Of a DNA stretch of 64,000 bases, positions 13,760 to 50,558 are shown piece by piece (position 1 is the stretch's first letter; each line of letters opens with the position of its first letter). The translations under genes were made by a program, and so were the position numbers. This DNA is from an uncultured bacterium. GTDB taxonomy: Bacteria > Muiribacteriota > Ozemobacteria > Ozemobacterales > Ozemobacteraceae. Location: the NCBI GenBank assembly GCA_900317935.1, contig ONIU01000002.1, forward strand, positions 1 to 64,000, in the 5' to 3' direction. A model generated the notes under the pieces. It was not told where the DNA came from and made no database searches. It saw only the letters and a list, made by a program, of their open reading frames with translations.

Positions 13760-16700
13760 CTAAATAATCCTAAAAACTTTCAGAGGCAAACTTTTGCCTT
13801 TTAAAGCAACTTCACCATATTCTTCTGCTCTAATATTGTCTTGAATTAATTCTTTTATGTTTTCGGAAACAACGACTCTGTTTCCGTTCAATTTTTCAGC
13901 GAAAACAGCGATACGAGCAGCAACATTAACAGGGTCACCAATAATAGTAAAGTCTCGCTTATCACCTACCCCAAGGAAACCTGAAATAACTTGCCCATAA
14001 TTTACCCCAACAGAGACTTTAAAACTTATTTTATCAGAAGTTTCAATCATATGAGCAACATTACATGCTAAGGTAGCCACTTCTTCATGATTCTTTTCAC
14101 CAATATGAAAAGCAATCAGCATTTTTTCACCCATAATCTTATCAATATCTCCACCGTTATTGATAACAGTTTCTGCTATTGCCGCCACTTGTTTTCTAAG
14201 CAAAGTAAATAATTTATAAACAGGTGTATCCTTCATTATTAAATCAAAGCCTGGTACTGTAATATAAAGCAAAACAACATTTATTTTTCTGCTATCTACA
14301 TCAGAAACATTTGCACTTACTTTCAGAGCAGTTTTAGAAACCATTCTGTTCATTAACTGCTTTTCTTCTAAGCCCTTCATCATTTTATCAAAAGACTCAC
14401 ATAGAGCACCTAGTTCATCGCCTCGTTTAAAATCAGTTCTAAATGAATAAATTTCTTTTGCAGCAGACTTTGCCCCGTTCATCAGCATTTTTACAGGAGC
14501 AAGCAAATCAGATATTGTACTTTGTGCTATAAAAATAATCATTATAACCGAGAATAAAATTACAGACATAAATATATAAAAAATCTTTACTGCTTCTCTC
14601 TTTAATGGTATTTCTGAAGCAAGAGCGACAAAATCATTATCCTTGATAATGCTTCCCTGACGAGCCTCAAGGTAATGGGTTCCATGTAAATCTATTGTCC
14701 TTGAAACAGGAACAAAGCTTGAATTGATCCAAAACGAAGCTAGACCCAATTCTTTTACAGTCTGAAGCTCTTCTTTTTCATTAATAATATTTCCATCATC
14801 ATAAAAGTAATATTCCCCAACATTAATATTGGGTGAATAGAAACAGAATAACTTTTTGTCTTTTGAACCTGTTATAAAATGCTCTTGCAAAGATGTTTTT
14901 TCATTATTTTTAAGTTCACAAGCACGAGGAAGAAGTTCATTATTAAAGAAAACCCAGGAAATCACAACGTAATCAGGATCATAATTTGAAGGGACAGGAA
15001 CCATATAAATAGCAACAGTTGTAAAAGAAGAGGTTGTAAAAATTAAACTATTGGGGAAATTAATAATTCTATTAGTTAGTTCTCCTCCGAAAACAGATTG
15101 CAAAGTTTCAAGCAATTTTTCGACAACCATAGCTTTTTTAACTGCTTGAGTTGAAGATTCATCACGTTTTAGAAATACAATTTTACCAATTTCAGCAATA
15201 ATTTTCCCTAGATCTGTCAATTTATCTCTATCTTTATGCAAATTTTTTTCACATCTAGAAATTAGCCAATCACCACGACCAACAATAATAGTTTCTATTA
15301 TTCTGTAATAAGAGTCTATATCAAACTTATTTTTATGATTTCCGCAAATATTTTTATCTAAGTATTCTTTAATTTTTTTTATATTTTTCTTTTTCTCTTT
15401 TTCATTAACAGAAGAATTAAATTTTTTGATTAAATCTTTAATGTGATATGATTTTGAAGCTTTTTCCAAATAAGAAGCGCAGAGAGGATGATAATAATAA
15501 TCTTTACTTTCAAGTTCATCTAACAAAGAATTCAATTTCAATCTAGTATCGGTTTTATTAACAGAATAATCTTCATTAACATAAAGATAAGAAACAAAAC
15601 AAACAATAATTAGAGGAAGAATTGTAGAAATGATAATATTTATACTTAGCTTAGAAATAAGAGAATCATCATTGTAAAGAAAAAATTTTTTAATTAATAA
15701 TGCAAATATTAAAAAGAAAAAAACAGAAAAAATAAAAATAGTTATATTAAACAATAAACCAGGCTGATTATAAGTAATTAATACTTTCTTAACTGCATAT
15801 ATATCCCAACTTTTATTACCGATTTTTAAAGAATCTAACAAATAGCCTTTTTCAGACAAAAGATTCTTATTTTTATGATTTTGAATAAGATAAGATTTTT
15901 CTTTTTCGGAAAAAGCATTTGAAAAATGCCATTCATTATTATTATTAAAAGCTAACAAAGTCTGTTTATCAGCTAAATCTTTATAATAATTAACCAAATT
16001 ATCAATTTTTATATCAGTAGGGATAGCGCAAAATATGAAAGCAAGTATTTTTTTCTTATTTTTATCATATATAAAATTAGTATTTAAATAAGTATCTTGA
16101 TTTTCTATCGTAGCTAGTGCAGAACGTCTGAAGTATAGGCTTCTCATTGAATATAAATCTGTTTTTTCACCAATTATATATTTCAATATTTCTTTTCTTG
16201 CCTCTTTATTTCTTTTTTCATTAACAGAAACTAACGAATATTTTTTTATCAAATCAGAGGTTTTTGAAGAAAATCCTTTATAAACAACATCTTTCAAACC
16301 ATATGGCATTTTATTATCAAACAAGCAGCAACAATACATAGGAATTGGTCTGCCCATTTTTTCATATTTATCAAAAACTTCTTCTATTAATTTTATATCA
16401 CCTTTAACTTTATTTTTTGAACATAAAGTCTGATTCAAATCTTCATATAGTTCAGCACATAAAGTTTCAAAAGAAGATTTAAATACTTCATTACTATTTA
16501 ATTGAACTATCAATCTAGATACTTCTTTATTTGACTCGGTTTTAAGACTGTCATAATCTGCTGAATAAATTAAATTCATGCATATAGTAATAAAAAAAGA
16601 AACAAATAATAGAACAAAAGTAATTAAAATATTGTTCTTTCTTTTAATTATGTTATTAGACAAAGATTGTAAAGAAAATTCCAACAAATTTTCAGGTTGA

Positions 16701-19700
16701 TTAGAATTCTTAGAAACCATTTCCTGCTGTTTTTTTATTTCATCAGGAACTATTCCGAGCTTAATCAATGCTTCTTTATTAATTGCCAAATCAATGGAAT
16801 AAACAGTAAACTCATGATTTTTAGGTTCTATTGTTTTAAAGCCAACCCCATAACGAGCAATTTTATCAGCAATTTCATTACAAACTACTAATGGGAACGA
16901 AGGATTATTTATAGTTAAAGCTTCGAATTTTGCAGCCTTCTTTAAAGGATCACCAAGAATTGAATAATCTAATCTTGTATCAAAGCTACCTACGGTTCCC
17001 GAAAACATTGTTCCATAGCAAAGCCCAACCCCAATTCGATAAGTGAACAAGTTTTTATTTATTCGTTTCTTATTTATTAAATCAAGTTTTAAAATCATTT
17101 GACAAGCCGCTTTAAAAGCTCGTTCAGAAGCATCATTTTCATATTCTTCTTTTTCAGGGAAAACCGCTTCTATAGCATCACCAATAAACTTATATATGAG
17201 ACCACCATTATCAGATATTATTTTTGCCATTTCTGCAAAATGCTCATTAAGCAGTTCAGTAATAATTACCGGGTCATATTGTTCACTCATACCAGTGAAA
17301 TTACGAATATCCGATACTAATGCAACTCCATCAAATGTTTCTGTATCATCCAGAAGAGCATTGCTGTTTTTTTGCAGAGCAAGAACAGCCTGATCTGATA
17401 TCAATCTAGAAAGGCGTTCTTTTTCCCTTAACCCACTAATCATATTAGTGTATTCTTCTGACAATTGTCCTAATTCATCGTTAGGAATATTGTTAAAACT
17501 TACATTCAAATTTCCCTTAGTGACTTCATCTAAACCTTTTTTTAAAGAAGTAACAGGCTTCAAGAAAACAGAAGCAGACCTGAAACTGCAAATTAAAAGT
17601 ATTATTATTGAAACAATGCCCAAAAATAATAAAATTTTTTTTCTAAACCAAACATCTAGATTAATATTTGTTTTATCTATCCAGCCGACAAAAACTATAT
17701 TCTCAAAATTTAAAGCTGGCATTGCCAATAAAATATTGTTTTCTTCCGTAAATACATTAGATTTGTTACCTAGAGAAACAAGTTTTGCTATTTCTTTTAT
17801 TCTAGACAAAAACTTTTGTGAACCATGACGTGTAACACCTACAGGGTCAATGTTATGTCCTTTAATTTTAAAACCAGCAAAACGATGATTTAAATATTTA
17901 TATGCATAATCATTAAATGACTTTTTTACAATATCCTCATCAAGAGTTTTATCATCCCATATAACAAAAAGCATGTATTTAGCTTTTCCGTTAATTCTTA
18001 TAAAATCAAAAATCTGCAAAGAATTTAAATTGCTGCTTTTTCTAAAAATGGGTATAGACAAGTGCCTGTTCAAACTCTCAGATAATTGATGACCAGTTAT
18101 TGTTTCATAGGCTTTATTAGCTAAGTCTTCATTATTATCTTTAGCCTCATAAGGCTTCATATTACATGCAGCATCTGGGTCTTCCTCTATCATCTTACTC
18201 CTTAAAATATCAACTTGCCCTGAAAGGAAAGACTTAAACAAAACTTCAACATTAATATCACTTAAAGCACTGCCCTTAATAAATGCTCCATTTCCAGATT
18301 CATCAAGAATTTTAATTCCTAAAACCGGCAGATAATTATTAGAATTACCTTCAAAAATATTTAAAACATATTTGGCGACCTCAATGTCTTCTATGCCATT
18401 TTTATTTATAAGTTCAACAAACTTTTCATCATTTATTGCCTTAGAAAAGGCAGCAACGTATTCTTTGATTATAGCAGACTTTTTGTCATCAATTGCTTTT
18501 AAAAGCATTTGTAAATCAAATACGGCCTTAGTAACAGATGTATTTTCATATCGAAGCATATATCCATAAGATGCAATAAACAAAAGACTTACAGGCAGAA
18601 TTGAAGCAAGAATATAGGATAGTATAAATCTTGTTGTTAAACTAATCTGAGGCCAATAATCAAAACCCAATCCATAAGAAAGAATCAAACAAAGAATTAG
18701 AATCAATAAAGTATTGATAAAAATCAACAACTTAGGCCAGGTTATTTTTTTAATAGATTTTATCAATACCACAGCAATATGAGAAGCACTTCTCTTCAAA
18801 TGGCAAAATACAGAATAATTACCTAAGGTTTCTCCTTTTGGCATACTTTCTTTTAACCATTTTTCAAGATCTTTACCTTCTTGAATAGTTATACCTTCAG
18901 CCCAAGTCATAAAGGGTTCAAATTTTGCCAAAGGCTTTGGAATTACAGCTTTGCCATAATCCTTATAAACCGGTAAAAATGCGCCAACAGCTTGTCCTCT
19001 AGACCTTAAATTTTTTAAGGCAAGTAATCGTCCACTATCGGAATAATTCTCCAGTTCATCGCAAAATAAAAAACATCCCCACAGGTTATTATCTACAGTC
19101 TTAAAATAATCCCATATAAAGAAAGAAAAAGTTTTTCCATCATTAGTATTAGTTGTTTGTCCCCTTAATTCCTTTACCAAAGTTTCTAAATTTGTAAATT
19201 GACCAAATAATTTTCTCGCAAAAGATAGATTTTTATCATTTTTTTCTTTTTTACTATCTTTATTAGAATTTAAATTTACGAAATAATCAAAAGCAAAACA
19301 CAATCCCTTAGCTCCGCCTTTTATTTCACCTTTAGAATAAAAGAGTTCGGAAGAAGAATTTGAAGATTTTTTAAAAACATAAAGGCTGTATTTTGGAAAA
19401 GGAAACCCAAAAATCTTATTAGCGTTTTGTTCTAAATTACTAATAAAATGACCTTTTCCTTTAAAATCAATTTTCGTATCATTTTTTAATATTTCAAAAA
19501 AATCTTTGAATAATTTAGAAAACTGATAAGAAAAATCGGCTTCAGAAGAAAGAATTTCTGCTTCATGCAGAGCGTTTTTTTCTTGTTCCTTCACTTTTAG
19601 TTCATAATTAATATAAGCATGCCAATAAAAACTAATATTAATAGCTAATAAAGGAATAACAAATAATAAGATAATGAGTATTATATTATTTTTTTCTTTA

Positions 19701-19717
19701 TATTGGCTATTCTGCAT
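13760..19717 (-). CDS. Giant duplicated membrane class III adenylate cyclase, paralog 6 (1985 aa)
   Basis: There are two halves of the same plan. TM1 (about 11-31), periplasmic domain, TM2-TM3 (about 328-350, 363-386), periplasmic domain, TM4 (about 695-712), HAMP and coupling helix, and cyclase domain C1 (about 790-960). Then TM5 (about 1030), TM6-TM7 (about 1318-1378), TM8 (about 1712-1735), HAMP and cyclase domain C2 (about 1810-1985). C1 has metal ligands D803 and D847 and K843, but K926 and K930 replace the transition-state Asn and Arg. C2 has T1820 and E1864 at the metal positions but keeps K1860, T1924, N1931 and R1935. Spacings match those of mycobacterial Rv1625c exactly (40 and 44 residues from the first Asp). 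One composite ATP site is predicted. This is the last of six tandem paralogs and starts three bases after the previous stop without a Shine-Dalgarno. Its C-terminal tail is the most divergent. Confidence 0.88.
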   Translation of the reverse strand: MQNSQYKEKNNIILIILLFVIPLLAINISFYWHAYINYELKVKEQEKNALHEAEILSSEADFSYQFSKLFKDFFEILKNDTKIDFKGKGHFISNLEQNANKIFGFPFPKYSLYVFKKSSNSSSELFYSKGEIKGGAKGLCFAFDYFVNLNSNKDSKKEKNDKNLSFARKLFGQFTNLETLVKELRGQTTNTNDGKTFSFFIWDYFKTVDNNLWGCFLFCDELENYSDSGRLLALKNLRSRGQAVGAFLPVYKDYGKAVIPKPLAKFEPFMTWAEGITIQEGKDLEKWLKESMPKGETLGNYSVFCHLKRSASHIAVVLIKSIKKITWPKLLIFINTLLILILCLILSYGLGFDYWPQISLTTRFILSYILASILPVSLLFIASYGYMLRYENTSVTKAVFDLQMLLKAIDDKKSAIIKEYVAAFSKAINDEKFVELINKNGIEDIEVAKYVLNIFEGNSNNYLPVLGIKILDESGNGAFIKGSALSDINVEVLFKSFLSGQVDILRSKMIEEDPDAACNMKPYEAKDNNEDLANKAYETITGHQLSESLNRHLSIPIFRKSSNLNSLQIFDFIRINGKAKYMLFVIWDDKTLDEDIVKKSFNDYAYKYLNHRFAGFKIKGHNIDPVGVTRHGSQKFLSRIKEIAKLVSLGNKSNVFTEENNILLAMPALNFENIVFVGWIDKTNINLDVWFRKKILLFLGIVSIIILLICSFRSASVFLKPVTSLKKGLDEVTKGNLNVSFNNIPNDELGQLSEEYTNMISGLREKERLSRLISDQAVLALQKNSNALLDDTETFDGVALVSDIRNFTGMSEQYDPVIITELLNEHFAEMAKIISDNGGLIYKFIGDAIEAVFPEKEEYENDASERAFKAACQMILKLDLINKKRINKNLFTYRIGVGLCYGTMFSGTVGSFDTRLDYSILGDPLKKAAKFEALTINNPSFPLVVCNEIADKIARYGVGFKTIEPKNHEFTVYSIDLAINKEALIKLGIVPDEIKKQQEMVSKNSNQPENLLEFSLQSLSNNIIKRKNNILITFVLLFVSFFITICMNLIYSADYDSLKTESNKEVSRLIVQLNSNEVFKSSFETLCAELYEDLNQTLCSKNKVKGDIKLIEEVFDKYEKMGRPIPMYCCCLFDNKMPYGLKDVVYKGFSSKTSDLIKKYSLVSVNEKRNKEARKEILKYIIGEKTDLYSMRSLYFRRSALATIENQDTYLNTNFIYDKNKKKILAFIFCAIPTDIKIDNLVNYYKDLADKQTLLAFNNNNEWHFSNAFSEKEKSYLIQNHKNKNLLSEKGYLLDSLKIGNKSWDIYAVKKVLITYNQPGLLFNITIFIFSVFFFLIFALLIKKFFLYNDDSLISKLSINIIISTILPLIIVCFVSYLYVNEDYSVNKTDTRLKLNSLLDELESKDYYYHPLCASYLEKASKSYHIKDLIKKFNSSVNEKEKKKNIKKIKEYLDKNICGNHKNKFDIDSYYRIIETIIVGRGDWLISRCEKNLHKDRDKLTDLGKIIAEIGKIVFLKRDESSTQAVKKAMVVEKLLETLQSVFGGELTNRIINFPNSLIFTTSSFTTVAIYMVPVPSNYDPDYVVISWVFFNNELLPRACELKNNEKTSLQEHFITGSKDKKLFCFYSPNINVGEYYFYDDGNIINEKEELQTVKELGLASFWINSSFVPVSRTIDLHGTHYLEARQGSIIKDNDFVALASEIPLKREAVKIFYIFMSVILFSVIMIIFIAQSTISDLLAPVKMLMNGAKSAAKEIYSFRTDFKRGDELGALCESFDKMMKGLEEKQLMNRMVSKTALKVSANVSDVDSRKINVVLLYITVPGFDLIMKDTPVYKLFTLLRKQVAAIAETVINNGGDIDKIMGEKMLIAFHIGEKNHEEVATLACNVAHMIETSDKISFKVSVGVNYGQVISGFLGVGDKRDFTIIGDPVNVAARIAVFAEKLNGNRVVVSENIKELIQDNIRAEEYGEVALKGKSLPLKVFRII

Positions 19718-19720
19718 AAC

Positions 19721-22700
19721 TTAAGATAACTGATAAACCTTCATCGGCTGAGATTTACCCTTTAATTCAACTTCTCCATAGAGATTTGCTTTAATATGTT
19801 TACTAATATAATAATAAATCGTTTCAGAAATCAAACAATTATCTTTTTCTAACTTTTCGCCCAAAACAGCAATACGGGCAGAAACATTAACCGGGTCACC
19901 AATAATAGTAAAATCACGTTTTTCTCCTACTCCAAGGAACCCTGAAATTACCTGTCCATAATTTACGCCTACAGAAACCTTATAACTTAGTTTTTCGCTT
20001 CCCTCAATCATATGTGCTACTTTACAAGCTAAAACAGCAACATCTTCAGGATTCCTGTCTCCAATATGGAAAGCAATCAGCATTTTTTCACCCATAATTT
20101 TATCGATATCGCCACCATTATTTATTACGATCTCGGAAATAACAGCAATTTGTTCTCTTAAAGAAGAGAAGAGTTCATATATAGGTGTATTTTTCATTAT
20201 TTTATCAAAGGAAGGAACTGATACATAGAGTAAAACCGCATTGATTTTTTTACTGTCTACGTCAGCAACATTAGCACTTACTTTAAGAGCTGTTTTAGAA
20301 ACCATTCTATTCATAAGTTGTTTTTCTTCCAAACCCTTCATCATCTTGTCAAAAGAATCGCATAAAGCACCTAATTCATCTCCCCTTTTAAACTGAGTCC
20401 TAAACTTATAAATACCCTTAGAAGCAGATACAGCCCCTTCAATCAATCGCTTTACCGGTGCAATCAAATCATTTATTACACTTTGGGTAATGAAATAAAT
20501 CAATAACAATATAAAAAGAATACCTAAACCAAAATATTTATAATTATCTTCAGCATTTTTTATTAAGGGTTTTTCAGAAGCAACAGCAACAAAGACATTA
20601 TCTTTTACATAATTTCCCTGTCTTGCTTCAAGAAAATGACTACCATGTATATCCGCCATTCTCGAAATAGGCACAAAGCTGGTATTTATCCAAGATGCAG
20701 CGAGCCCCAATTCTTTAACGGTTTTCAAATCTTCTCTTTTATTAATTAAACCGCCTTTATCGTTCAAAAAGAAACTTTCTCCAACTCTAATATTTGCAGA
20801 GTAAAAACAATATTTTTCAGTTCCAACAGAACCAGAAGCAATATACTGTTTATAAGGAACAATATCATTTCTCATATTGCAAATATCTGATAAATAATTT
20901 GCATCAAAAAGAACCAAAGATATAATTAAATACTCAGGATTATATATATTGGGATAAGCAGAAGCATAAAAACCTACTATCGAATAGGAAACCCCTACTG
21001 TAACAAAATTATTGGGAAAACTGACAATTTTACTAGCATAATCGCTTCCAAAAACTGATTCTAATGTCTTAATAAGGGAATTAGTCATTAATTCAGCTTC
21101 AAGTTCTTGTTTATCTATTTTTTCCGTTTCTTTTTTATTTTTATTCAAATATATAGTCTTACCAACTTTTGAAAGTAAAAGACCAAAATCAGACAATCTT
21201 CTTTTGCCGTCGTCCTTTTTTTCTCCGGTAGCCGATGAAAGCCAACCATCTTTTCCAATAAAAATTATTTCCTTAATTGCATAAAAAGGCTTTTTCTTTT
21301 TCAGATTTGTATGTACAGTAGAATTATATCCTGAGACATTTGCTTTAAGATAATCTGAGAAATCGTTTATTGATTTATTTTTATTCTTATTTTCTTTATT
21401 ATTTAAATCTTTGATATATTTTTTAATTTCATCAATATTAGGAAGATTTTTAAAATAATTTTCGCATAAAGGATTGCAATATAATTCTTTTCGTTCTGTA
21501 TCATCAATTAAATTTTTTAAATCTAAAATAGTTTCAGCTTTTCTAACATTTAAGTCTTCATTAATATAAAGATAAATAAGACAACAAACAGTTAATAAAG
21601 GTAATAAAGCAGAAATACCAATATCTATTATTAATTTGCTTGCTATTGACGAGCTAAAAGAAAATATTTTTCTTCTTATTATTCCTATTATTATAACCCC
21701 GAAAATTAAAGAAAAAACTAAAACTATATTATCTACTAAAAATATGGAAAAATTATTAACAGACAATTCTTTAGTGATTGCATAAAATTCATAGTATTCG
21801 TTATTTGTTTCAAAATTTCCAACATAATAACCTTTGTTATGAACTGCATTTTTATCTAATGTATTTTGTAGAAACAATTTCTCTTTTTGTGGAAAAGATC
21901 GAGAAAAATACCATCCATTTTTGGCTTTTATAGCCAACAATAAATTATTTCCTGCTAATAAAGTATAATAGTTAATCAATTTAGATTTATCATATTTTTG
22001 CGGCATTGCACACAAAATATATGCTAATATTTTTTTCTTATCTTTACTGACGATTCTATCTGTGTTAATCAGCATGTTTTCTTTATCAATCGTTGCTAAT
22101 CCAGAGCGTCTATAATAAAAAGAATTCATATTGAAACTATCCACCGTATTCCCGAATAATAACTTGAGTTTTAAATCTTTATCACCTTTTGTAATAAAAC
22201 TTAAAGCATAATCATTAAGATTATTGATGGTTTCATCGGAAAAATCTTTTGCTGACACTTCTTTTATTTTACGGTTATTGTCATAATCATACAGACAACA
22301 ATAGTATTTTGGAATTGGAATATTTAGTTTTTCATATTTGTCTGCAACCTTTTTTATTTTTTGCCTGAAATCTATAGAATTGTCTTCCGAATTTAAAATT
22401 TTATAAATATCTTCATAGAAATCGAAACAAAGGGTATCAAATGCAGACCTTAATAATTCATCGCATTTTAACTGGTTTTCTAATCTGGAGCACTCCTTAT
22501 CTGAGTGAGTTTTTAAATCTTTATATTTAGTAAAATATACTGTATTTACTCCCAAAGTTATAAAAAGAGAAATAAATATAATAATAAATGAGTTTAATAA
22601 TATCTCCTTGATTCTTTCTTTCAAAAGGAATTGATTTGAAATAGAGAATAATTTAATATCTTCTATTTTATTTTCAGATTTTTTTATTTTAATAGAATCA

Positions 22701-25678: not shown

Positions 25679-25680
25679 TT

Positions 25681-31600: not shown

Positions 31601-31737
31601 TCTTGTTTTTTGCGTTCAAAACGGTCATTAATATCAGCAAAAAAATAATAGCCAAGATTAATAGCAGCCAAAGGAATTATAAAGAATAATATAATAAGTA
31701 TTATATTATATTTTTCTGTATAACTGTCTTTTTTCAT
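25681..31737 (-). CDS. Giant duplicated membrane class III adenylate cyclase, paralog 4 (2018 aa)
   Basis: Same layout as the other members, with TM5 near 1049, TM6 near 1349, TM7 near 1386-1408 and TM8 near 1742-1765. C1 carries D825, K865 and D869. Its second signature reads LGEPLKKAAK, so S941, K948 and K952 occupy the base-recognition and transition-state positions. C2 carries S1853 and E1897 at the metal positions, with intact K1893, T1957, N1964 and R1968. Compared with the other subfamily B members it has about 20 extra residues in the second periplasmic domain (around 480-505), including a repeated phrase on the theme KILDEAG / KIYDEAG that looks like a small internal duplication. It starts three bases after the previous stop without a Shine-Dalgarno. 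Function as in the other paralogs: a predicted cAMP-producing membrane receptor. Confidence 0.88.
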   Translation of the reverse strand: MKKDSYTEKYNIILIILFFIIPLAAINLGYYFFADINDRFERKKQERQAVHEAELLGVEADFSNQFSLLFSKFLDVLKSYSKIDVIKTKSLINILDQNVNKIFESPFPKYSLYVFKIDSNSHHSLMLYSKGDIKGGKKGLSLAFDYLFETSQNRNDKNDKNETFARNLLGHYTKIEAIAKQLRGMPVNINYNNNFSLFIWDYFIDKNKNVYGSFLICDELENQAEHGRRLALKNLRSRGKAIGAFLPIYKEYGKAEMQYPLENSPKFKEWADLITIQKEEDLEFWLKNSLPQAVPLENYSAFCHLERGSSHIAVVLVKSIKSVVCPKWLIATNILLFLILSLIIYIGVCFGYWPKINLTVRFSLMYVLAAVLPLSLLFVVTYGYLVKFENTSENKVISELQSALKSFDSEKTAIVQEYRKAFIKALNDEKMINLINERGIEDEAVAKRVLEIFEKENHLPVLGIKILDEAGYGAYAEGGSTYLDNAEQVKIYDEAGNETSVKSSSTLSVNVKNVVDAFLSTQVKILRRKIEEEDSDAKNWMKNFEVKNNNLEWANKGYEAITGQELDKAISKYLSTPITRRTGDLFSIQIFDFIKINNKTRYMLFVIWDDKTLDERIVCDAINKNNFQKYNYSFAGLRIKSQKAESIGNNLRHASRKLKTEIFNKAKLVSLENKSGVFVEDNNIIMAMPSLNFKQIVFIGWIDKANIDISVLIRKFIFLFLTALSLVILWICIIRSVSVFLKPVSALKGALDEVSRGNLHVSLNNSPNDELGQLANEFSNMINGLKEKERLSKLISEQAVQALQKKSSGLLNDTESFNGVALVSDIRNFTGMSEHYDPVEITDLLNEHFAEMSKVISDNGGLIYKFIGDAIEAVFPENSDFTETAKKRAFNAGCLMIAKLAAINKRRTERNLFTYRIGVGLCYGTMYSGSVGSFETRLDYSILGEPLKKAAKYEALTILNPSFPLVVGVDIADKLAFYGFDFYKINEKGLDSSVYTLDVKKNEDIFNKHNLLNIGNNLNKTNSNSSESSKDVKFFSLQTEKRSIFRSNNIGLTWLVVFIVSIMITLGANFIYLTSFDDLKIDSDKECLRLFEQLNSNEVLKSSFEALCFDFYEDLYNVINSQNSNNNKIELIENIAKKYKELKKPIPKFCCLLANTDDKSGMLEILNKGFELETAKAMASYTWYKINDDSENQEKYLKQMFGEDITKYSIRSIYNRRSAFTTIDGQDVYLDTEGIYDVIPSENGFGNEHDQPDKLKAFIFCAMPKDMQSDYLADYYKVLAGKSIFLALNLDKKWVFSESYTEKEKEFLKENYKNIDTLEKEKGYLRKTIDIGNKTWDVYIIKKDLALYYSSKLWLNIIVFLSSLFLLIICAVIAKKTFIYSTDSVAGKLKTNIVTFTILPLIVVGFVSYLYVSEDYNVNKSETRLKLNKLMDEIENKELYYQPLYLHYLDKVSKSEGIVKRANKINSCKNDEEKQLLVAEFNNYLQKNVVGAGKNTFEVDPFFFISEVIVSGKNDWTSSIRKPEWAEETSNDTSLSETGKFISTIGKTLYLNNESLKAAVGNEMSENLVDTLASLFGAEFAIKFTNSPKELVLFSASFATIGFYTSPMPFSNKVDYILQAFLFFKNEFKPHICELKNNDKISLVKHYKTGSKDEKLFCFYSPNVLVGEYFFYNNSHYPNPKEELHTVKELGLASSWINSSFVPVSRTINLFGTHLLEARKGNIIADNVYAAISSEVPIREKAYLSLIGFGSIIIVSLIMIYCIAQNIILDLLAPITKLIDGAKSAAREDYSFRANFIRKDELGILCESFDKMMKGLEEKQLMNRMVSKTALKVSANVADVESKKINVVLLYVSVPGFDKIMKTTPIFELFTALRKQVADISEIVINNGGDIDKIMGEKMLIAFHINDKNPEDIAVQACKVAHMIESSDKLSFKVSVGVNYGQVISGFLGVGEKRDFTIIGDPVNVAARIAVFGEKLDKDKCLISESIYYYINSYIKADLYGEVELKGKSQAMKVYQIV

Positions 31738-31740
31738 ATA

Positions 31741-38244: not shown

Positions 38245-38273
38245 TTAACTCTAATTACTAAGATTATCGATTC

Positions 38274-41200: not shown

Positions 41201-44200
41201 AATCAAAAGCAACTTTACCATAATGATCACCAAGCATTTGTTCAATAATCAGTTTATTATTTGCAATAAGTTCATTTTTCTTAAAATCTTTTCTATGCTT
41301 ATTATTAAATAATATCCCAAGAGTTAATATTGAAATAAAGAGCAATATAAAAATAGAAGCTAAAATGAATTTTCTTTCTGAAGAAATATCATCCTCTATT
41401 TTATAAGAATCTATAGCAGACTTATTGCTTTTTGGTGTAATATCTTTTCTAGTAAATTCATCAAAAATAAAGTTGTCCGTTTCACTATTCTCTTCTGTTC
41501 TAATTATGTTAGGCAAAGCATCCTTGCAGGAATTATCAATTTTATATCCTTTCAGCCCATCTTCACTTTTTACAAAAGAAAAAATAATTTTATCAGAAAT
41601 ATTTTTAAAATTAGAAATAAAATTTTCATCAACAATAAGCGGAAATTCTGGATTCAATTTTGACATACTTTCAAGCTTTGCTGCATTTTTTAAAGCATCA
41701 CCTAAAATTGCATAATCTAATCTGGTTTCTAGACTTCCTATTGAACCTGAGGACATATTACCATAACAAAGTCCAACACCTATTTTATATTCAAAAAGAT
41801 TATTACTAACACGCTTATTATTAATTTTATTTAAGGCTTCAAGCATTTGTACAGATGCAAGAAAAGCTCTTTCAACGGATTTCTTTTCAAGATCATCATT
41901 ATCTGAAAATACAACTTCAATTGCATCACCAATATATTTATAAATACGGCCGCCGTTTGATGCAAAAATTTTAGTCATACAAGCAAAGTGTTCATTCAGC
42001 AAATCAGTAATCTGTTCAGGTTCATATTTTTCACACATTCCGGTAAAGTTACGTATATCTGTAACCAATGCTGTTCCATAGAATTTTTCAACGTCTGTAT
42101 TAACCTCATTAGCATATTCATTCTTACTCAAGGCCTCAACAGCATGATCAGACAGTAGAGTAGCAAGTTTATTTCTTTCAGACAATTCTCTTGTCATAAC
42201 ACTAAATTCACGACTCATTATTCCAAATTCGTCTTTACTGCTGCTCTTTATTTCAATATCAAGGTTCCCATCGGCCACTTTGTCTAATACTTGTTTTAAG
42301 TTCCATATAGGTTTCAAAAATATTTTAAAAGAATAATAAATACAGAATAAAAATAGAATTGTTGCAATAGCAATAATAGTTGCACATACAAACTTTCTTT
42401 CAAAAACAGGCATTTTTAAATCGTTATGAGAAACACAACCAACAATTATTTTGTCTTTATATTTCTTCGAAGGAACAGCGATAGCAGACATAGTCTCGTA
42501 GCGACGAGAGACTATGTCCCCACTGAAATAAGCTTGCTTTGCTAATTCAAGACTATTTTTTTCGAAATCTCGTCCATGTCTGCCAGAATCTATCCAAGGC
42601 TTAGAATTATCTCTAAAATGAGTAGAATCAAAAGCGAAAAAAACCAAATCTGGTTCTTTAATAGAAAAATAATTAAGACTGGACCTAAAAGTTTCTTCAT
42701 CCGATTCAGCAAGGTCCCAAGTAAAAAATAAAACAAAACGAGGTATACCATTTATATAAATATTATCAAAAATATGACTGATTATTCTATCTCCAACAAG
42801 CCTGTCAAAAATAATATTTCTATGTTCATCCAATACTTTGGATAAATCACCTCGACCCCCTGCAGCATTTTTAAAACCACCAGATGCAGTTTCCTGATAA
42901 AGAGTTGGAGTATATTCACGATCCCATTTTTTAGTTTTTGGAGCCACTTGTAATATTTTCTCTCTCATTGGCTTCAAAAAAGAATACATTAAAATATTTA
43001 TAGATTTTTCATTAATATCCCTACATTTATCCTCTTCAAGAGATAAATCTTTTTTATTACTGAATCCTCCTCCTTCTAATAAATTAAAAATCTGACAATC
43101 ATTTTTATAATAATTTGAAAAGTAGTTTCCACGTTCATCAATAATGGTTATAGATAATATAGGTAAATCTCTAGAGCCTTTTTTTAGTATTCCAAGAGCG
43201 CAGTTTAAAACCTCTTTAGCTTCAATTGGAAATTCTTTTGGATTATTAGAATTTGCTTTATCAAAACGTTTAATACTTTCTTGAAAATTAGAATCATTTA
43301 AAATATCTAAATATGCAGTTTTATAGTCTTCCTGCTTTTGAGTTTTTCTAATATCAAACTGATTTATACAAAATCTTAACTTAGACAATTTATCGAAGTA
43401 AGCAGAATGCTGATATTCCGATATATATCCATAGGATGCAATAATCAGCAATCCGAGAGGCATACAGGCAGCCAGAAAATATGTTGTAATAAATCTGATT
43501 TTTAAAGAAATATTAGGCCAAACACCTTGTATAAATCCTCTTATTAAAAGCAACATTGTTATACTTATCAAAACGATGTTAAGAAAATACAGCCAAAAAG
43601 GTAATTTTGCTTTATCCAAAATTGGCTTTAACAAAACTGCTGCATGAGACTGACCCGCCATAATATGAAAAAAAGCCTGGTAATTACCAACTCTGGTCTT
43701 TTCAAAAAGTTTTGAAGTATCTTTGAATTGCCAGGAATATAAATCATCTATATTTTTTGGAACCCATTCTCTAGTAAGTCGTTTATATTCTGGCATTTTT
43801 GCGAATTCTTCATTAGCAATTACTCCGCCATATCCTGGAAACAATGGAATAAATGCCCCGTATTTATTTTTCCCTCCTTCAGAATTATTCTTTAATTCTC
43901 TTAACGCTATAAGCTTACTTCCTATTTCAGCATTAACATTATTTTCAATTAATAAAAACAAACCATATATATCGCCAGTTTCTTCATATTTTAAATAATC
44001 CCAAAAAAAATAATGAGGCTTATTATTATAAATAGAATATGAAACCTTACCTCGTTGAGTATTGGCAATTATAGACGGATCACACTCACTACCGAGAAAT
44101 GTCTTCGCCATTGAAAAACCTGATTTATTATTGTTTTTATAATTATCGTCCGACAAATTCGTTTTGGCAAAGTATTCAAAAGCAAATCCAATAGCCCTTT

Positions 44201-44633
44201 TCCCAATTAGATTTTCAACATTGTGATAAATAAGTTCTGTTTTATTATTATATGCCGAAATTCTAAAAACAAAAAGATTATGCTCAGGGAAAGGCTTTTT
44301 GAGTATTTCAACAGCATGACTAGCTATATTTTCTAATAATTCATTTTTCTGATTTTTTTTACTGAAAGACTTGACATCTTTTTTTAATTCATCAAAAAAA
44401 TTACCTGCTTTTTTTCCCATACAGTAAACAAAATCTGATGATGCAGCAAAAGATTCTGCTTCCTTTTGTGATTGTTCTATCCATTCACTTTTTATCCAAC
44501 TATAATCTATATAAGAAAAAAAATACCAGCCAATATTTAATAAAAGCAAAGGGAAAAGCCAAAGAATAATTGGTAAATATCTATTCTGATTCGGCAATAT
44601 CTTTTTTTTATTTTTATCAATTAAATAACTCAT
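38274..44633 (-). CDS. Giant duplicated membrane class III adenylate cyclase, paralog 2 (2119 aa)
   Basis: A subfamily A member with TM1 20-38, TM2 about 341, TM3 about 378-400, TM4 about 744, TM5 about 1088, TM6 about 1441, TM7 about 1478 and TM8 about 1841. C1: D859, K899 and D903 present; A975, K982 and K986 at the base and transition-state positions. C2: G1952 and E1996 replace the metal Asp pair; K1992, T2058, N2065 and R2069 present. In the second periplasmic domain, codons at 42487-42518 form a perfect-looking hairpin absent from the paralogs, giving the local peptide GDIVSRRYETM where the others read differently at nearly the same length. It is close-spaced with its neighbours (29 bases on each side). 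Confidence 0.88.
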   Translation of the reverse strand: MSYLIDKNKKKILPNQNRYLPIILWLFPLLLLNIGWYFFSYIDYSWIKSEWIEQSQKEAESFAASSDFVYCMGKKAGNFFDELKKDVKSFSKKNQKNELLENIASHAVEILKKPFPEHNLFVFRISAYNNKTELIYHNVENLIGKRAIGFAFEYFAKTNLSDDNYKNNNKSGFSMAKTFLGSECDPSIIANTQRGKVSYSIYNNKPHYFFWDYLKYEETGDIYGLFLLIENNVNAEIGSKLIALRELKNNSEGGKNKYGAFIPLFPGYGGVIANEEFAKMPEYKRLTREWVPKNIDDLYSWQFKDTSKLFEKTRVGNYQAFFHIMAGQSHAAVLLKPILDKAKLPFWLYFLNIVLISITMLLLIRGFIQGVWPNISLKIRFITTYFLAACMPLGLLIIASYGYISEYQHSAYFDKLSKLRFCINQFDIRKTQKQEDYKTAYLDILNDSNFQESIKRFDKANSNNPKEFPIEAKEVLNCALGILKKGSRDLPILSITIIDERGNYFSNYYKNDCQIFNLLEGGGFSNKKDLSLEEDKCRDINEKSINILMYSFLKPMREKILQVAPKTKKWDREYTPTLYQETASGGFKNAAGGRGDLSKVLDEHRNIIFDRLVGDRIISHIFDNIYINGIPRFVLFFTWDLAESDEETFRSSLNYFSIKEPDLVFFAFDSTHFRDNSKPWIDSGRHGRDFEKNSLELAKQAYFSGDIVSRRYETMSAIAVPSKKYKDKIIVGCVSHNDLKMPVFERKFVCATIIAIATILFLFCIYYSFKIFLKPIWNLKQVLDKVADGNLDIEIKSSSKDEFGIMSREFSVMTRELSERNKLATLLSDHAVEALSKNEYANEVNTDVEKFYGTALVTDIRNFTGMCEKYEPEQITDLLNEHFACMTKIFASNGGRIYKYIGDAIEVVFSDNDDLEKKSVERAFLASVQMLEALNKINNKRVSNNLFEYKIGVGLCYGNMSSGSIGSLETRLDYAILGDALKNAAKLESMSKLNPEFPLIVDENFISNFKNISDKIIFSFVKSEDGLKGYKIDNSCKDALPNIIRTEENSETDNFIFDEFTRKDITPKSNKSAIDSYKIEDDISSERKFILASIFILLFISILTLGILFNNKHRKDFKKNELIANNKLIIEQMLGDHYGKVAFDSKCRMFAKRIQEKINELETNEKCDEIITNTLNDCYNSDLSIKGLGLNSVFVRFGNFNNKEIEADDLNTYLENNIPVYPIANIGYSKEEIKGICDSYRIIYSEKNKIIENNLKDKLKNKFKNIEENKIKDKLIEFYENPCRKLFGDKIVISRLDGDLINTTTEAIIREKDCFLYTLNFYHKNSSNIIGYLVISMPAENAYKSIPFILSAFSKNNENIILKNKDSNEWHFSDSIPLYVKDKIKNILQEKNCGDSYSEIIKYLDSEGGILNKGKKENVKIGNQFYEIYMVGLFGQNNIFSIKDYIIICLFFFLLVWVLKNILKGTSIFNKSIPAKLWLAFLIVAVIPVLTVFFVPSLFLNEYLSVNNSLKRGEMQRFMGIYERKMDFFLPITWNDLKKKNHSVELNNYIDILNNSDLSKETKEKAMHQLRSMVETWLDTEKRYSRDDKIKNKERAIIGYKFTDFTISGKGGWSFCFSDGKENDSIENKPINLASIGEKGANNKDSSENVFGSMIKIIAKSLLDKKLNEDKENKVDSRKVANELAVEAGFDTVRTFYGDDTFIKILHGINIITLFDIGFGKMGFMIVALPDYKNPKAIMVWVINFDNFYYMEKNIDKVESDFRIFTAEPFRYGIVANKTDDNNLRIPIGEYASWIAASNNPISANIELNNEKYLLEGAPGLKQFNSLLIALFSEKELIEEVNKLAFVFYILLAFSLIIIIINTKIIADDIINPINALIIGIKEVNKENFSFRINSDRTDELGTLCLSFDRMTKGLDEKRMMSRMLSKTARMTTLDDESVTSGKTDAVLLYIGVPNFSRVMKSFEDCEVFEKLKKYTAVMAGLIMNEGGEVDKIIGEKMLAIFRVNNNETEIAMAAYRVAKKMLELEKTNQLSFSISIGLNYGKVINGFLGVGNKRDFTVIGDPVNVTARIESLAESLDSNRCLISETFYKLVDNLITARIYGEVELKGKSQPMKVYNLL
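42487..42518. repeat. Palindromic unit inside the coding sequence of cyclase paralog 2
   Basis: GACATAGTCTCGT (42487-42499) and ACGAGAGACTATGTC (42504-42518) form a 13-bp stem with a two-base bulge around a 4-base loop. Its G+C content exceeds that of the flanks. The frame stays open, and the paralogs lack the palindrome at the aligned site. Confidence 0.6.
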
Positions 44634-44663
44634 TAAACTTTTATTATTTCGAATTATTGATTT

Positions 44664-47600
44664 TTAAACCAGACTATATACTTTCATAGGCTGTGATTTA
44701 CCTTTTAATTCAACTTCTCCATAATATTCAGTCTTAATATCACCACTAATCAATTCATTGAATGTATTAGAAAGCAAACATCTATTCCCCTTTAGATTTT
44801 CAGCCAAGCCTTCTATTCTAGCAGTAATATTTACAGCATCGCCTATTACAGTAAAATCTCGTTTATTTCCTATTCCAAGAAAACCATTAATAACTTCGCC
44901 ATAGTTTATTCCTATAGATACTGAAAATGGTAATTTCTTTGATTCTTCTAATTCTAAAATACGTTTTGCGGCATTATAAACAGCTTTAGCAGAATCTTGC
45001 TTATTATTCTTTTCCGGGAAAACAGCTAATAATCTTTCCCCAATAATTTTATCTACTTCTCCGCCCTCTTCCATAATAATACCAGCAACTAATGAGGTCT
45101 GAACCGTTAAAGAAGCAAATATTTCATTATCTTTTTTCTCCTTTTGAAAAGAAGAAAAATTAGGAATTCCTATATATAATAAAAATAAATTTGTTTTTCC
45201 TACAGAAATGTTTCCTTCTTTTGATGCAACTTTTTTTGCTGTATTAGAAAGCATATGACTCATAAGACGTTTTTCGTCTAATCCTTTTATCATTTTATCA
45301 AATGATAAGCATAAAGCTCCTAATTCATCTGTTCTATCTGAATCTATACGGTAGGCAAAGTTTTCTTTTTTTACTTCTCTTATGCCTGATATTAAACTAT
45401 TAATTGGAATAATAATATCATCTGCAATATTTCTTGTATTATGTATAATAATCAGCAAAGAAATACCTAAGAGCAAATAGAAAGCAACACTTAAAATAAT
45501 AATTTCATTTAAAATATTTTTTTCAGGTGAAAGTAGTAAAAGAATACCTTTCCTGTCTGGTAAAAAAGTTTTTCCATCAATACAATACCATTCTCTATAG
45601 CCATATTTATAATAATCAGAGATAGAATTATTAGAAGTAGATATCCAATTTGCATAACCACCGAGTGCCAATCGCCAAAATTCATCCTTTTGCTGTTTAA
45701 AGCAACCATAACTTTGACAATCAGAAATATTAATCATATATTCAGTATCTAATACTTCTGATAAACGTTTCAGATAATCAAAATCGTCATATTTAGTTAC
45801 CCAGAGTATCATTCCTTCTGAATTATCAGAAACAATTCTATAAGAATATAAGCCATAAAATCCATCTGACAACTGAATATAAACAGGTTCATCAGAATTA
45901 TGAATTAAACCAATATACTTATCATCACCAAGAACTGATTTTATACTAGATAAACTAATGTCTTCAAATTTATTATTAATCTGTTCTTTATAATAATTAG
46001 AAATATCTGAATTTTTTACTTTTAGATTTAAGTCTGCTAACTCACCTAATAATCTGTTAAATTTATTATCATCTAATAAAGCTAATTTCCAACCATTTTT
46101 CCCAGCAACCATAACATTTTCAATTGAAAAGTTAATTAGTTCTTCCTCACCTTTTATCTTCGAAGTAATTTCTTTAACCCATGAATTAATAGAAGTCTTA
46201 AAAGTTTTAATATGTTCTTCCTTACCAGTTGAATCAGTTTCAAAATCATTATCCAAAACCTTAATATTAGTTTTTAGTTCTTCAGATTCATTTATAGTTT
46301 TAATATAATTCCAACCTATCGGAGAATAAAACTTATATTTTTGTTCAAATAAATCTTCAAATTTCTGAAGTTCTGCTCTTTGAACCGAGCATTTAACATA
46401 ATAATACTCACTTCTAAACAATCCAAAAACAAAGAACACGGTAACAACAGGAATTACAGCAACAATAAGTAAAGCAACCCATAACTTAGCAGCAATTGAT
46501 GTATTTATTCTAGAAGTCCCTTTTGAAACCTTCCATAAAGTAATACTGAACCCAACAATAATAACAAAAACCCAAAATAGAGCATTTCTTGGATTTCCCT
46601 TATTTAACTTGCAAAGTCTTGTTAAATATAAATCGTAGTATTTTCCGCCAATATCTATAATTCCTTTATTAGTAACCCCAAGTAAATCATATAAGTATTC
46701 GTTTCCAATAAATCTAATATCTTTTTCATTTACTACAGATTGATTTTTATCAGCAGCAATAACTCCATCTTTTATATATTCCGGAACATTATCAGAAAAA
46801 TACCATTTTTTAGCTTCTTTATCTTTTAAAATTACTAATGCTTCATTTTTAGAAAAAGCACTCAACAGCAAAGGTATTGATTCCATTATCGGCTTCGAAG
46901 GAGCAGAAAGAACCAGATATCCAACAGGTTTATCTCTATTATCTTTATAAAAATCAAACCAGAAAAGATATCCTTGTCTTCCGTTATAAACTGCATCTAT
47001 AGTAGCATTTTTTGCTTTTTCACTGAGATTTAATTTTGAAAAAGAATCCGCATTTACAAAACGTTTATTGATTTCAATTCCATTAAGACTCTTATCTGAA
47101 TTAATAATTTGATTAATACTATTAGAAACAAAGTTTTCCGTAATTTCATTTTCGTTAACTTTATCAATAGTCTTTTGCAATTCTATACAAATATCTCTGC
47201 ATTTAATATCAAAAATTGTTTTTGCATATTCTTCACAGATTATCTGACTTAATGTTCGATTATTTACTACAGATAGAGGTATTTTTTCACTGTTATGTGC
47301 AGTAGTGTATACAAAATATATACCTAAAGACATAATTATAGCTAATGTAATTACAAAAATGGAACCAGGAATAAACTTTCTCCAAAAAGAAAAATTTTCT
47401 TCCACATCTACTGAACCTAAAGAATTATTATTATCAGTAGCTTTATCAGATTCTTGAGCATCCAATTTGTTTAAAGGTTTTATTAATTTAAAACTATTTT
47501 TTGTTTTTTCCAAGAAAGCGGTTACAAGATTCTTATCAGAGACATAAAAAGCATCTGAATTAGTATTATCCATAGGTTTAAAATTCAAATCCGGATAATT

Positions 47601-50558
47601 ATTATTAAAAATATCAACAAAATTTTTATTAACAATCAATGGAAAATCTGGTTTAAATCTTGAGTAGCTTTCTAATTTCGAAGCATCTTTTAGAGAATCA
47701 CCTATTATAGCATAATCTAATCTGGTCTCAACACTACCAATAGTTCCTGCTGACAGTTCTCCATAGCATAAACCAATTCCTATTTTATATTCAAACAAAT
47801 TATCATTAAGTCGTTCTTCATTAATTTTACTTAAATAATCCAACATCTGACATGACGTTATAAATGCTCTCTCAGCAGAAGTCTTTTCAGTGTCATCTCT
47901 ATCAGCAAAAACTGCTTCTATAGCATCTCCTACATATTTATATATACGGCCACCATTTGAAGAAATAATTCTTGTCATTACAGCAAAATGTTTATCAAGA
48001 AGATCAGTTATCAAATCTGGGGAATACTGCTCACACATTCCTGTAAAATTGCGAATATCTGAAACAAGTACAGTTCCTTTAAAACTTTCAACATCTGAAA
48101 CATCTTCAGAATTTTCTTTTTTACTCAAAGCTTCAACAGCATGATCAGATATCAAAGTCGAAAGCTCTTTTCGAACCGATAGTTCTTTTGTCATCTGATT
48201 AAATTCATTACAAACCTGGCTAAATTCATCTTTACTGCTACTCTTAATTTCTATATCAAAATTACCTTCAGATATTTTATCCAAAAGCCCTTTCAATTTA
48301 CTAATAGGTCTAATAAATATTATTGAAGAATAATGTAGACAAGCTAGGAAAATAACAAAGGCAATAAAAATAACAACAATGCAAATCCAGAATCTAGTAA
48401 AGATATCCATCTCCAAATCATGATAAAATACACCGCCAACAAAAATGACATCCTTATATTTTCTTGAAGGAACTGCCACCAAAGACTTGTTTTTATCGCG
48501 ACTTGAAATAATAGTATTTTTAAAATAAGCTTGTTTAATTATATCTATACTGGAAGAATAAAAGTCATTTATATGCCTATCATTATTTTCTGGCCATATT
48601 TTTATACCATTAGAGTTAGCTTTATATGCTGAAAATATAAAGAAAGGTTCATTAACAGCAAAATATCTTAGAGAAGAAATAAATGTTTTTTCATCGAGAC
48701 TGCTCTCATCCCAATATATACATATGGCATAACGAGGCTTTCCGTTAATATAGATATAATCAAAAATAAAGCTGTAGTTATTTTGCTCAAAATCTTTTGT
48801 AATAATTTTTCTTACATTATTATCTGTTATCTCAGGGATTAATTGTAAATCATCAATATTTTGCATCAATTCTTTCGAATTATTTTGATTTTTTGCGGAA
48901 GAATCACTTATTCGTTTAAGTAAAGAATTATATATATTTAAAAATACTTTATTTTGTCCAATAATTAAATTTTTATCAGATTTAACTCCTTCTTTTTCAT
49001 CACTACAATTTAAGAAGCAAAATGTAGGATTCAACTCATTCCCAAAATTATTTAAACATCCGCCTTTTTCATCAATAACAGCCAAAGACAGTATAGGTAA
49101 ATCTCTTTCACCTTTATTCAAATGGTTTAACATCCTGCTCAATATATCCATTGCTTCAGGAGATGTTTTTCCAATAGAATTATCATATGTTTTATCTAGT
49201 TTGACAAAAGAAGCAGTAATATATTGATTGTTTAATATTTCCAAGAAGGCTGTTTTATACTCTTCCTGAGCTTGCATCTTTGAATTATCAAATCTATTTA
49301 TATTTAATTTTAGTTTTGATTGATTATTAAAAATATCTGTATGTTTATACTCTGAAATATAGCCATATGAAGCTATTATCATCAAACCCAACGGCAAGCA
49401 GGCTGCAAGAAAATAAGTAGTAAAAAATCTAGACTTCAAAGAATAATTAGGCCATTTCCCTAGAAAGAAACCTCTTAAAATCAAAGATAAAATTATAATT
49501 AGTGCAACAATATCAAAAATTAGCAATTCTATCGGCATCTTAATTATTTCAAGAGTAGGTACAAATAAAACCGCAGCGTGAGTTTGATTCGGTCCTGTAT
49601 AAAAAAAGGCCTCATACTTATTTACTATGCAGTCTTCTAATTTTGCTGGAGCACTATTTTTTTGCCAATAAGACAATTCTTTTATATTTTTAGGAGTCCA
49701 TTTGTCTAATATGGAAGAAAATTCTGGAATCTTTTTTAATTCTTCACTAGCAACCAATTCACCCGATTCAGGAAATAACGGAATAAATGCTGCATAATTC
49801 TTGTTTTTATAATTCTTTTGTTTTTCTTTCAAATCATTGATTGCAAGTAATCTTCCAGCAGTTTTAGTATCTAAATCTTTATCAATAAAAACAATAAAAC
49901 CAAAATAATCACCGGTATCTTCATTTTTAAAATAATCCCAAAGAAACAGACTTGATTTATTATTATAATAAGCTAAGGAAGATTTTGAGCGTTGGCTTTC
50001 AGCAAATATAGAAGCTTTTATATTTTCTCCAAATACCAGCTTTGCAGTTTCTTCCCCCTTCATGCGATCTTCATTAGAATAAGAAGAATCATTTGAATTC
50101 ACTTTAACTAAATATTCAAAAGTATTTGCCAAATATTCCTTTTCAACAGCAGTTTGATCATTTGTGTATAGAAGTCTTGCTTTCCCTGTAGAAGACTGGA
50201 TTTTGAAAACTACAAGGCTATTTTTGGGAAAGGGGGATTTAAATATACTATCAGATCTGCTTTTTACATAAGTAACAAGAGCACCTTCTTGAGAAGCATC
50301 ACAAAACAATTCCGTATCAGATTTTAATACTTCACAAAAATGAGAAGAAATGGCCGCGAAACAATAAGAAAAATCAGAATTTGCAGCTAACGCTTCTGTT
50401 TCTTTATTCGCAATTTCTATACGTTCTTGTTCTTCCCAACGCCTATCTATAGAGACAAAGAATCTCCAGCCAATATTCAAAAGCAACAAAGGGAAAAGCC
50501 ATAAAATAATTGGCGAATAATTATTTTGTTTAGTAGTATTATTCTTCTGTTCACTCAT
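44664..50558 (-). CDS. Giant duplicated membrane class III adenylate cyclase, paralog 1 (1964 aa)
   Basis: The first cyclase of the cluster in transcription order. Predicted helices: TM1 20-37, TM2 about 339, TM3 about 376, TM4 about 719, TM5 about 1059, TM6 about 1320, TM7 about 1356 and TM8 about 1686. C1: D834, K874 and D878; A950, K957 and K961 (IIGDSLKDASK) at the base and transition-state positions. C2: G1797 and E1841 in place of the metal Asp pair; K1837, T1903, N1910 and R1914 intact. It belongs to subfamily A but is the most divergent of the three; the linker before C2's membrane helix is shorter. The ATG overlaps the stop region of the zinc-ribbon gene by eight bases, which ties it to that gene's promoter. 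Confidence 0.88.
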   Translation of the reverse strand: MSEQKNNTTKQNNYSPIILWLFPLLLLNIGWRFFVSIDRRWEEQERIEIANKETEALAANSDFSYCFAAISSHFCEVLKSDTELFCDASQEGALVTYVKSRSDSIFKSPFPKNSLVVFKIQSSTGKARLLYTNDQTAVEKEYLANTFEYLVKVNSNDSSYSNEDRMKGEETAKLVFGENIKASIFAESQRSKSSLAYYNNKSSLFLWDYFKNEDTGDYFGFIVFIDKDLDTKTAGRLLAINDLKEKQKNYKNKNYAAFIPLFPESGELVASEELKKIPEFSSILDKWTPKNIKELSYWQKNSAPAKLEDCIVNKYEAFFYTGPNQTHAAVLFVPTLEIIKMPIELLIFDIVALIIILSLILRGFFLGKWPNYSLKSRFFTTYFLAACLPLGLMIIASYGYISEYKHTDIFNNQSKLKLNINRFDNSKMQAQEEYKTAFLEILNNQYITASFVKLDKTYDNSIGKTSPEAMDILSRMLNHLNKGERDLPILSLAVIDEKGGCLNNFGNELNPTFCFLNCSDEKEGVKSDKNLIIGQNKVFLNIYNSLLKRISDSSAKNQNNSKELMQNIDDLQLIPEITDNNVRKIITKDFEQNNYSFIFDYIYINGKPRYAICIYWDESSLDEKTFISSLRYFAVNEPFFIFSAYKANSNGIKIWPENNDRHINDFYSSSIDIIKQAYFKNTIISSRDKNKSLVAVPSRKYKDVIFVGGVFYHDLEMDIFTRFWICIVVIFIAFVIFLACLHYSSIIFIRPISKLKGLLDKISEGNFDIEIKSSSKDEFSQVCNEFNQMTKELSVRKELSTLISDHAVEALSKKENSEDVSDVESFKGTVLVSDIRNFTGMCEQYSPDLITDLLDKHFAVMTRIISSNGGRIYKYVGDAIEAVFADRDDTEKTSAERAFITSCQMLDYLSKINEERLNDNLFEYKIGIGLCYGELSAGTIGSVETRLDYAIIGDSLKDASKLESYSRFKPDFPLIVNKNFVDIFNNNYPDLNFKPMDNTNSDAFYVSDKNLVTAFLEKTKNSFKLIKPLNKLDAQESDKATDNNNSLGSVDVEENFSFWRKFIPGSIFVITLAIIMSLGIYFVYTTAHNSEKIPLSVVNNRTLSQIICEEYAKTIFDIKCRDICIELQKTIDKVNENEITENFVSNSINQIINSDKSLNGIEINKRFVNADSFSKLNLSEKAKNATIDAVYNGRQGYLFWFDFYKDNRDKPVGYLVLSAPSKPIMESIPLLLSAFSKNEALVILKDKEAKKWYFSDNVPEYIKDGVIAADKNQSVVNEKDIRFIGNEYLYDLLGVTNKGIIDIGGKYYDLYLTRLCKLNKGNPRNALFWVFVIIVGFSITLWKVSKGTSRINTSIAAKLWVALLIVAVIPVVTVFFVFGLFRSEYYYVKCSVQRAELQKFEDLFEQKYKFYSPIGWNYIKTINESEELKTNIKVLDNDFETDSTGKEEHIKTFKTSINSWVKEITSKIKGEEELINFSIENVMVAGKNGWKLALLDDNKFNRLLGELADLNLKVKNSDISNYYKEQINNKFEDISLSSIKSVLGDDKYIGLIHNSDEPVYIQLSDGFYGLYSYRIVSDNSEGMILWVTKYDDFDYLKRLSEVLDTEYMINISDCQSYGCFKQQKDEFWRLALGGYANWISTSNNSISDYYKYGYREWYCIDGKTFLPDRKGILLLLSPEKNILNEIIILSVAFYLLLGISLLIIIHNTRNIADDIIIPINSLISGIREVKKENFAYRIDSDRTDELGALCLSFDKMIKGLDEKRLMSHMLSNTAKKVASKEGNISVGKTNLFLLYIGIPNFSSFQKEKKDNEIFASLTVQTSLVAGIIMEEGGEVDKIIGERLLAVFPEKNNKQDSAKAVYNAAKRILELEESKKLPFSVSIGINYGEVINGFLGIGNKRDFTVIGDAVNITARIEGLAENLKGNRCLLSNTFNELISGDIKTEYYGEVELKGKSQPMKVYSLV

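Follow-up and report, generated by a model that had tools for sequence, protein, structure and literature searches.

In animal transmembrane adenylyl cyclases (AC1–AC9), each chain carries two class III cyclase domains with complementary roles, the first supplying the metal-binding aspartates and the second the lysine, base residue, asparagine and arginine. This two-halves-in-one arrangement has long been described as special to animal-type enzymes and, according to a 2022 review, is unknown in bacteria; homodimerization has been called a fundamental difference of the bacterial adenylyl cyclases (PMC4821796). Complementary point mutants of Rv1625c, D300A with R376A, form a regulated dimer (PMC4821796). 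Mammalian soluble adenylyl cyclase (AC10) and soluble guanylyl cyclase alpha/beta also build one active site from two non-equivalent class III domains; both are cytosolic with other regulatory domains, and the guanylyl cyclase consists of two chains and makes cGMP. Bacterial receptor cyclases of the HAMP-linked, Rv3645 type string together a sensor, transmembrane (TM) segments, a HAMP domain and a class III domain that holds all catalytic residues (DKDTNR, giving in order the first metal position, Lys, second metal position, base position, Asn position and Arg position), and would homodimerize with two equal sites.

Here we describe six bacterial proteins, from gut-type Riflebacteria, that share the catalytic logic of the animal transmembrane enzymes, with activity inferred, and that stand outside that family by topology, linker and sensors. 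They constitute a new form of the HAMP-linked class III receptor cyclases, differing from the homodimeric members in having two domains per chain, each of them incomplete. Like the Rv1625c mutant pair, they would combine two defective domains that complement each other into one functional site, but those mutants are laboratory constructs whereas the present arrangement is natural and conserved. No fused or heterodimeric class III cyclase of bacterial origin turned up in a search of open-licence papers, and entries for bacterial proteins with two cyclase domains may already exist, without comment, in domain-architecture databases.

A tandem array of six proteins with two cyclase domains each

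Six intact open reading frames (ORFs) fill positions 13760-50558 of the minus strand of the window, the whole stretch of 64,000 nucleotides of DNA that was analysed. They are co-directional, spaced 2-30 bases apart, and encode proteins of 1964-2167 aa: fused receptor cyclases 1 (P0001, 13760..19717, 1985 aa), 2 (P0002, 19721..25678, 1985 aa), 3 (P0003, 25681..31737, 2018 aa), 4 (P0004, 31741..38244, 2167 aa), 5 (P0005, 38274..44633, 2119 aa) and 6 (P0006, 44664..50558, 1964 aa). The initial annotation had assigned two class III cyclase domains to each of these giant proteins, and domain searches bear this out: Pfam scans of P0001, P0004 and P0006 returned two copies apiece of HAMP and Guanylate_cyc, a local cyclase profile detected two cyclase domains in all six proteins, and all 12 domains exceed the curated cut-off of the class III cyclase family PF00211.

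The order of domains within the halves was derived by combining the Pfam and profile matches with hydropathy, AlphaFold and Foldseek results. Each half has about four TM helices by hydropathy, in agreement with the AlphaFold2 (AF2) models, and a HAMP domain precedes each cyclase domain, so that the proteins keep the sensor-TM-HAMP-cyclase order of HAMP-linked bacterial receptor cyclases. P0001 reads TM, dCache-like sensor, TM, TM, dCache-like sensor, TM, HAMP and C1, and then repeats this series to end in C2, giving two dCache-like sensors per half and four per chain. Homology between the N and C halves extends over their entire length (hhalign probability 99.8%). Support for the sensor folds comes from modelling: in an AlphaFold model of the N half (pLDDT 82.5, pTM 0.65), strands and helices follow the same pattern in both long extracytoplasmic regions, and Foldseek finds ligand-binding domains of the dCache type as matches for the extracytoplasmic part, including those of TlpQ, PctD, McpH and TlpC. 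Among the six paralogues mean identity is lowest in the sensors (26-35%) and highest in the catalytic domains (58-59%), as expected of receptors for different ligands with one shared output.

This layout departs from that of the animal enzymes, which have two 6-TM bundles, a helical, cyclase-transducing element instead of HAMP, and no large periplasmic sensors. A fused ancestor common to both groups is not indicated, the nearest relatives of the window proteins being other Riflebacteria cyclases.

Immediately upstream of the array, with an 8-base overlap into the first cyclase gene, lies a gene for a small zinc-ribbon membrane protein of 150 aa with hydrophobic segments (50551..51003, minus strand). 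Homologues directly precede fused cyclases in 10 of the fetched contigs (L023-L026, L029, L031, L034, L035, L037 and L041, the last identical to L102), making the protein a candidate accessory partner and first operon gene; together with the six cyclase ORFs it forms what looks like a single operon of ~37 kb. The M18 aminopeptidase gene, which lies farther upstream, has counterparts in 7 of the fetched contigs. Downstream of the array, positions 11551-13668 encode a HAMP-GAF-GGDEF protein that probably lacks diguanylate cyclase activity, since its GGDEF motif reads DTNKF; a HAMP-GAF-GGDEF-like gene and the TAXI-type binding protein gene that follows it here recur downstream of a fused cyclase in contig L046. 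Elsewhere the window holds eight clustered tRNA genes (6010-6764; Pro, Gly, Arg, His, Arg, Lys, Lys, Gly), two overlapping ORFs at 6822-10527 that, as read from their sequence, resemble ABC exporter halves, and a transposase-like ORF of the PD-(D/E)XK type (61025-61984).

Division of catalytic residues between the two domains

Residue by residue, the two domains of each window protein prove complementary. The C1 domain of P0001 (16784..17443, minus strand, as for all the domains below) keeps D803, K843 and D847 and has S919 at the base position, K926 at the Asn position and K930 at the Arg position; its C2 domain (13766..14383) has T1820 and E1864 at the metal positions and keeps K1860, T1924, N1931, R1935 and K1973. 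The same division holds in P0002 (C1 22724..23389, DKDSKK; C2 19727..20344, SKETNR), P0003 (C1 28732..29397, DKDSKK; C2 25687..26304, SKETNR), P0004 (C1 35131..35796, DKDAKK; C2 31747..32370, GKETNR), P0005 (C1 41565..42197, DKDAKK; C2 38280..38903, GKETNR) and P0006 (C1 47556..48194, DKDAKK; C2 44670..45293, GKETNR). In every C1, then, both metal aspartates are present and the Asn/Arg pair is replaced by two lysines, with Ser three times and Ala three times at the base position, while every C2 has Lys, Thr, Asn and Arg, with T, S, S, G, G and G at the first metal position of P0001 to P0006 and Glu at the second throughout. Apart from the C1 base position, the initial annotation had read the losses and retentions in this way, down to P0001 residue numbers that recomputation reproduced exactly, and alignment to the solved, active cyclases bPAC and OaPAC gave identical residue equivalences: bPAC TLLGDAVNVAAR aligns with C1 AILGDALKNAAK, and bPAC GD with C2 GE. 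Only the composite of C1 and C2, and neither domain alone, supplies the full set of metal, base and transition-state residues at a dimer interface. The lysine of an LKGK motif (K1973 in P0001) occurs in all six C2 domains and was not seen in the matching C1 sequences; it is a further substrate-half feature retained in C2 only, a statement limited to the six window C2 domains because the profile alignment over all loci is gappy there.

We followed these positions through 54 distinct fused proteins, all from one Riflebacteria family. C1 has the first metal aspartate in 53 of 53 readable cases and the second in 54 of 54, and C2 has Lys, Asn and Arg in 54 of 54 and Thr in 53 (Ser in one); the C1 metal and C2 Lys/Asn/Arg columns show zero variation. 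Variability in the C1 Asn and Arg columns exceeds that of two thirds of columns: the canonical residue stands at the Asn position in only 3 of 54 proteins and at the Arg position in only 6, Lys/Lys being common and E, Q, H, R, S and T also occurring. The first metal position of C2 is G in 39 proteins, T in 5, S in 4, A in 4, M in 1 and D in 1, and the second is E in 27, D in 24, G in 2 and N in 1; no C2 has both aspartates, and the sole one with the first (L131:694-5235, DKNTNR) has Asn at the second. Among 41 single-domain class III domains from other bacteria, by comparison, both metal aspartates are present in all 41 and Asn with Arg in 39, so that conservation, and not chance, accounts for the complementary pattern. 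The second site is not uniformly destroyed: one C1 in 54 retains both Asn and Arg (L101:6880-13041, DKDSNR), a possible intermediate or reversion, and the second metal aspartate persists in 24 of the C2 domains. The suggestion in the initial annotation that the dead site serves as an allosteric pocket gains no positive support, because its residues vary.

Models suggest that C1 pairs with C2 as in human AC5 and AC9. An AF2 model of P0001 residues 787-1985 (pLDDT 80.6, pTM 0.61) finds full-length human AC5 as its top PDB match in Foldseek, and a full-chain match is likewise obtained with AC9, whose TMq is 0.29 against ~0.14 for matches spanning one cyclase domain; this roughly twofold value implies that C1 and C2 superpose jointly on the mammalian C1:C2 pair, a reading taken from scores and not from coordinates.

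Split and homodimeric relatives and the origin of the division

The same genomes contain adjacent, often overlapping pairs of ~1000 aa genes with the same layout and the same C1/C2 division. Split C1-type genes have both metal aspartates in 21 of 21 cases; in split C2-type genes the first metal aspartate has become A, H, G, S or V in 18 of 18, with K, T, N and R present in all 18. Gene order is C1-C2 in some pairs and C2-C1 in others. That the same division is found in trans in adjacent genes suggests that the halves are meant to pair. Five split C2-type genes (L117, L118, L119, L121 and L123) have His at the first metal position (HKDTNR), a replacement distinct from the A/S/V and G types that hints at separate losses. 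A window-type pair is also found as two adjacent genes placed inside the fused clades (L094:362-6480, genome G017), suggesting either fission or a retained split state.

A homodimer-type relative of ~1000 aa with all residues in place (DKDTNR) occurs in the window genome and in nine relatives (L107-L116 represent this HAMP-linked type); L009/L107 has the same 4-TM layout and is homologous to the N half over its full length. The window genome altogether encodes 34 cyclase domains, namely 12 C1-type, 12 C2-type and 10 complete. One domain in this genome (L015:1-1029, DEDGNR) has Glu and Gly at the base-selecting positions and is perhaps a guanylyl cyclase.

We sought C1 relatives in one genome per species across 84,980 prokaryote species, and close ones appeared almost only in Riflebacteria: rumen, abomasum and reindeer-gut genomes, Candidatus Rifleibacterium amylolyticum, HGW-Riflebacteria-1, GWC2_50_8 and Ozemobacter. 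In 40 genomes of the phylum, such a C1 was found at E <= 1e-45 in 21 of 24 inside the window's family and in 0 of 16 outside it; more diverged fused proteins in the family retain the C1/C2 division. Spread beyond the phylum, as records labelled 'Candidatus Methylomirabilis' (L037) and 'Erysipelotrichia' (L026) would imply, was rejected: their coordinates match genomes of the window's family, so the labels are probably wrong.

Half-protein trees (854 columns, trait columns removed, LG+C20) place the fused C1 halves with two split C1 halves in one clade (support 98) and the fused C2 halves with the partners of those two in another (99), the fused C1 and C2 clades being sisters (92) and the split pairs making additional mirrored clades. 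The L136 split pair, whose ORFs overlap, branches without resolution basal to the two fused clades, which fits fusion of an overlapping split pair without proving fusion over fission. Whole halves (p = 0.0002) and sensor plus HAMP (p = 0.00004) reject monophyly of all C1 halves, whereas the catalytic domains do not (p = 0.69). The division may have had several origins; alternatively, a single origin with sequence exchange between partner sensors could explain the sensor-tree result. Because the catalytic and sensor partitions disagree, we do not adopt repeated origin. A first catalytic-domain tree, which put the fused C2 domains and L007 on a long branch, is likely an artefact and is superseded by the half-protein trees.

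Proposed mechanism and competing explanations

We consider it very likely that each protein is a pseudo-heterodimeric receptor adenylyl cyclase formed by a single chain, with ATP specificity, activity, within-chain pairing and ligand control all inferred. The domains, the residues and their family-wide conservation, the split-pair counterparts and the homology of the halves are established at the level of sequence, and the dCache folds and the C1:C2 pairing are supported by models. The two homologous halves would sit side by side in the membrane, with C1 and C2 paired head to tail to create two interface sites. In the live site, the C1 aspartates would bind the metals, and Lys, Thr, Asn and Arg of C2 would serve adenine recognition and the transition state; the dead site would have no intact metal pair in C2 and would have lost Asn and Arg from C1. 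HAMP domains usually act as dimers, and we infer that the two of one chain form the bundle. Ligand binding by the periplasmic sensors would change this bundle, and with it the C1:C2 geometry and cAMP output. Among possible effectors, the window genome has eight matches to cNMP-binding proteins, two with the canonical cAMP-type motif FGEMALL...PR[TS]AS; a PF00233 phosphodiesterase search gave no match in any control genome and is uninformative.

One live and one dead composite site, as the initial annotation proposed, fits the conservation across 54 proteins, the split pairs and the model matching mammalian C1:C2; we state it more softly, since activity is not shown and pairing between chains or paralogues is not excluded. 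The live site might instead lie between chains, with C1 of one molecule meeting C2 of another copy or of a paralogue in larger or mixed assemblies: the split genes suggest that halves can pair in trans, and six closely spaced, co-directional paralogues would offer partners. Fused C1 and C2 halves, however, form mirrored clades and remain in one chain across the family, and the single-chain model fits the mammalian arrangement, so that we hold a between-chain site to be unlikely. Homodimers of C1 or C2 alone are unlikely, but not impossible, sources of activity; some class III enzymes, such as Rv1900c/Rv0386, function with unusual residues.

The product and the very existence of catalysis must be weighed as well. 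Class III enzymes can be lax in their choice of substrate, which leaves room for a guanylyl or other nucleotide cyclase, but ATP is inferred as substrate because C2 has Lys and Thr at the base positions, an adenylyl combination (animal transmembrane enzymes have Asp in place of this Thr). Guanylyl cyclases carry Glu and Cys-type residues there, as the L015 domain may exemplify, and a substrate other than ATP seems improbable to us. Least credible, with very little in its favour, is a pseudo-enzyme role, in which these proteins would bind nucleotides or ligands as receptors but not act as cyclases; essential residues are indeed missing from each domain taken alone, but losses and retentions are complementary, the retained set being near-invariant across the 54 fused proteins and the lost set variable, and drift would not leave precisely one composite site intact.

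On a bolder reading, one bacterial family contains all the stages of a path to an animal-type cyclase together, namely a homodimer, a split heterodimer gene pair and a fused pseudo-heterodimer, and complementary half-site loss occurred there more than once. We put this forward only tentatively, at somewhat less than even chances; if it is true, the family would allow the emergence of two-domain cyclases with a single site to be replayed. These proteins are a naturally occurring bacterial collection of considerable size, accompanied in the same cells by split and homodimeric relatives, and are open to experimental test. They raise a testable hypothesis: with 12 C1-type and 12 C2-type halves in a single genome, fusion may hold cognate halves together and insulate receptor channels from cross-talk.
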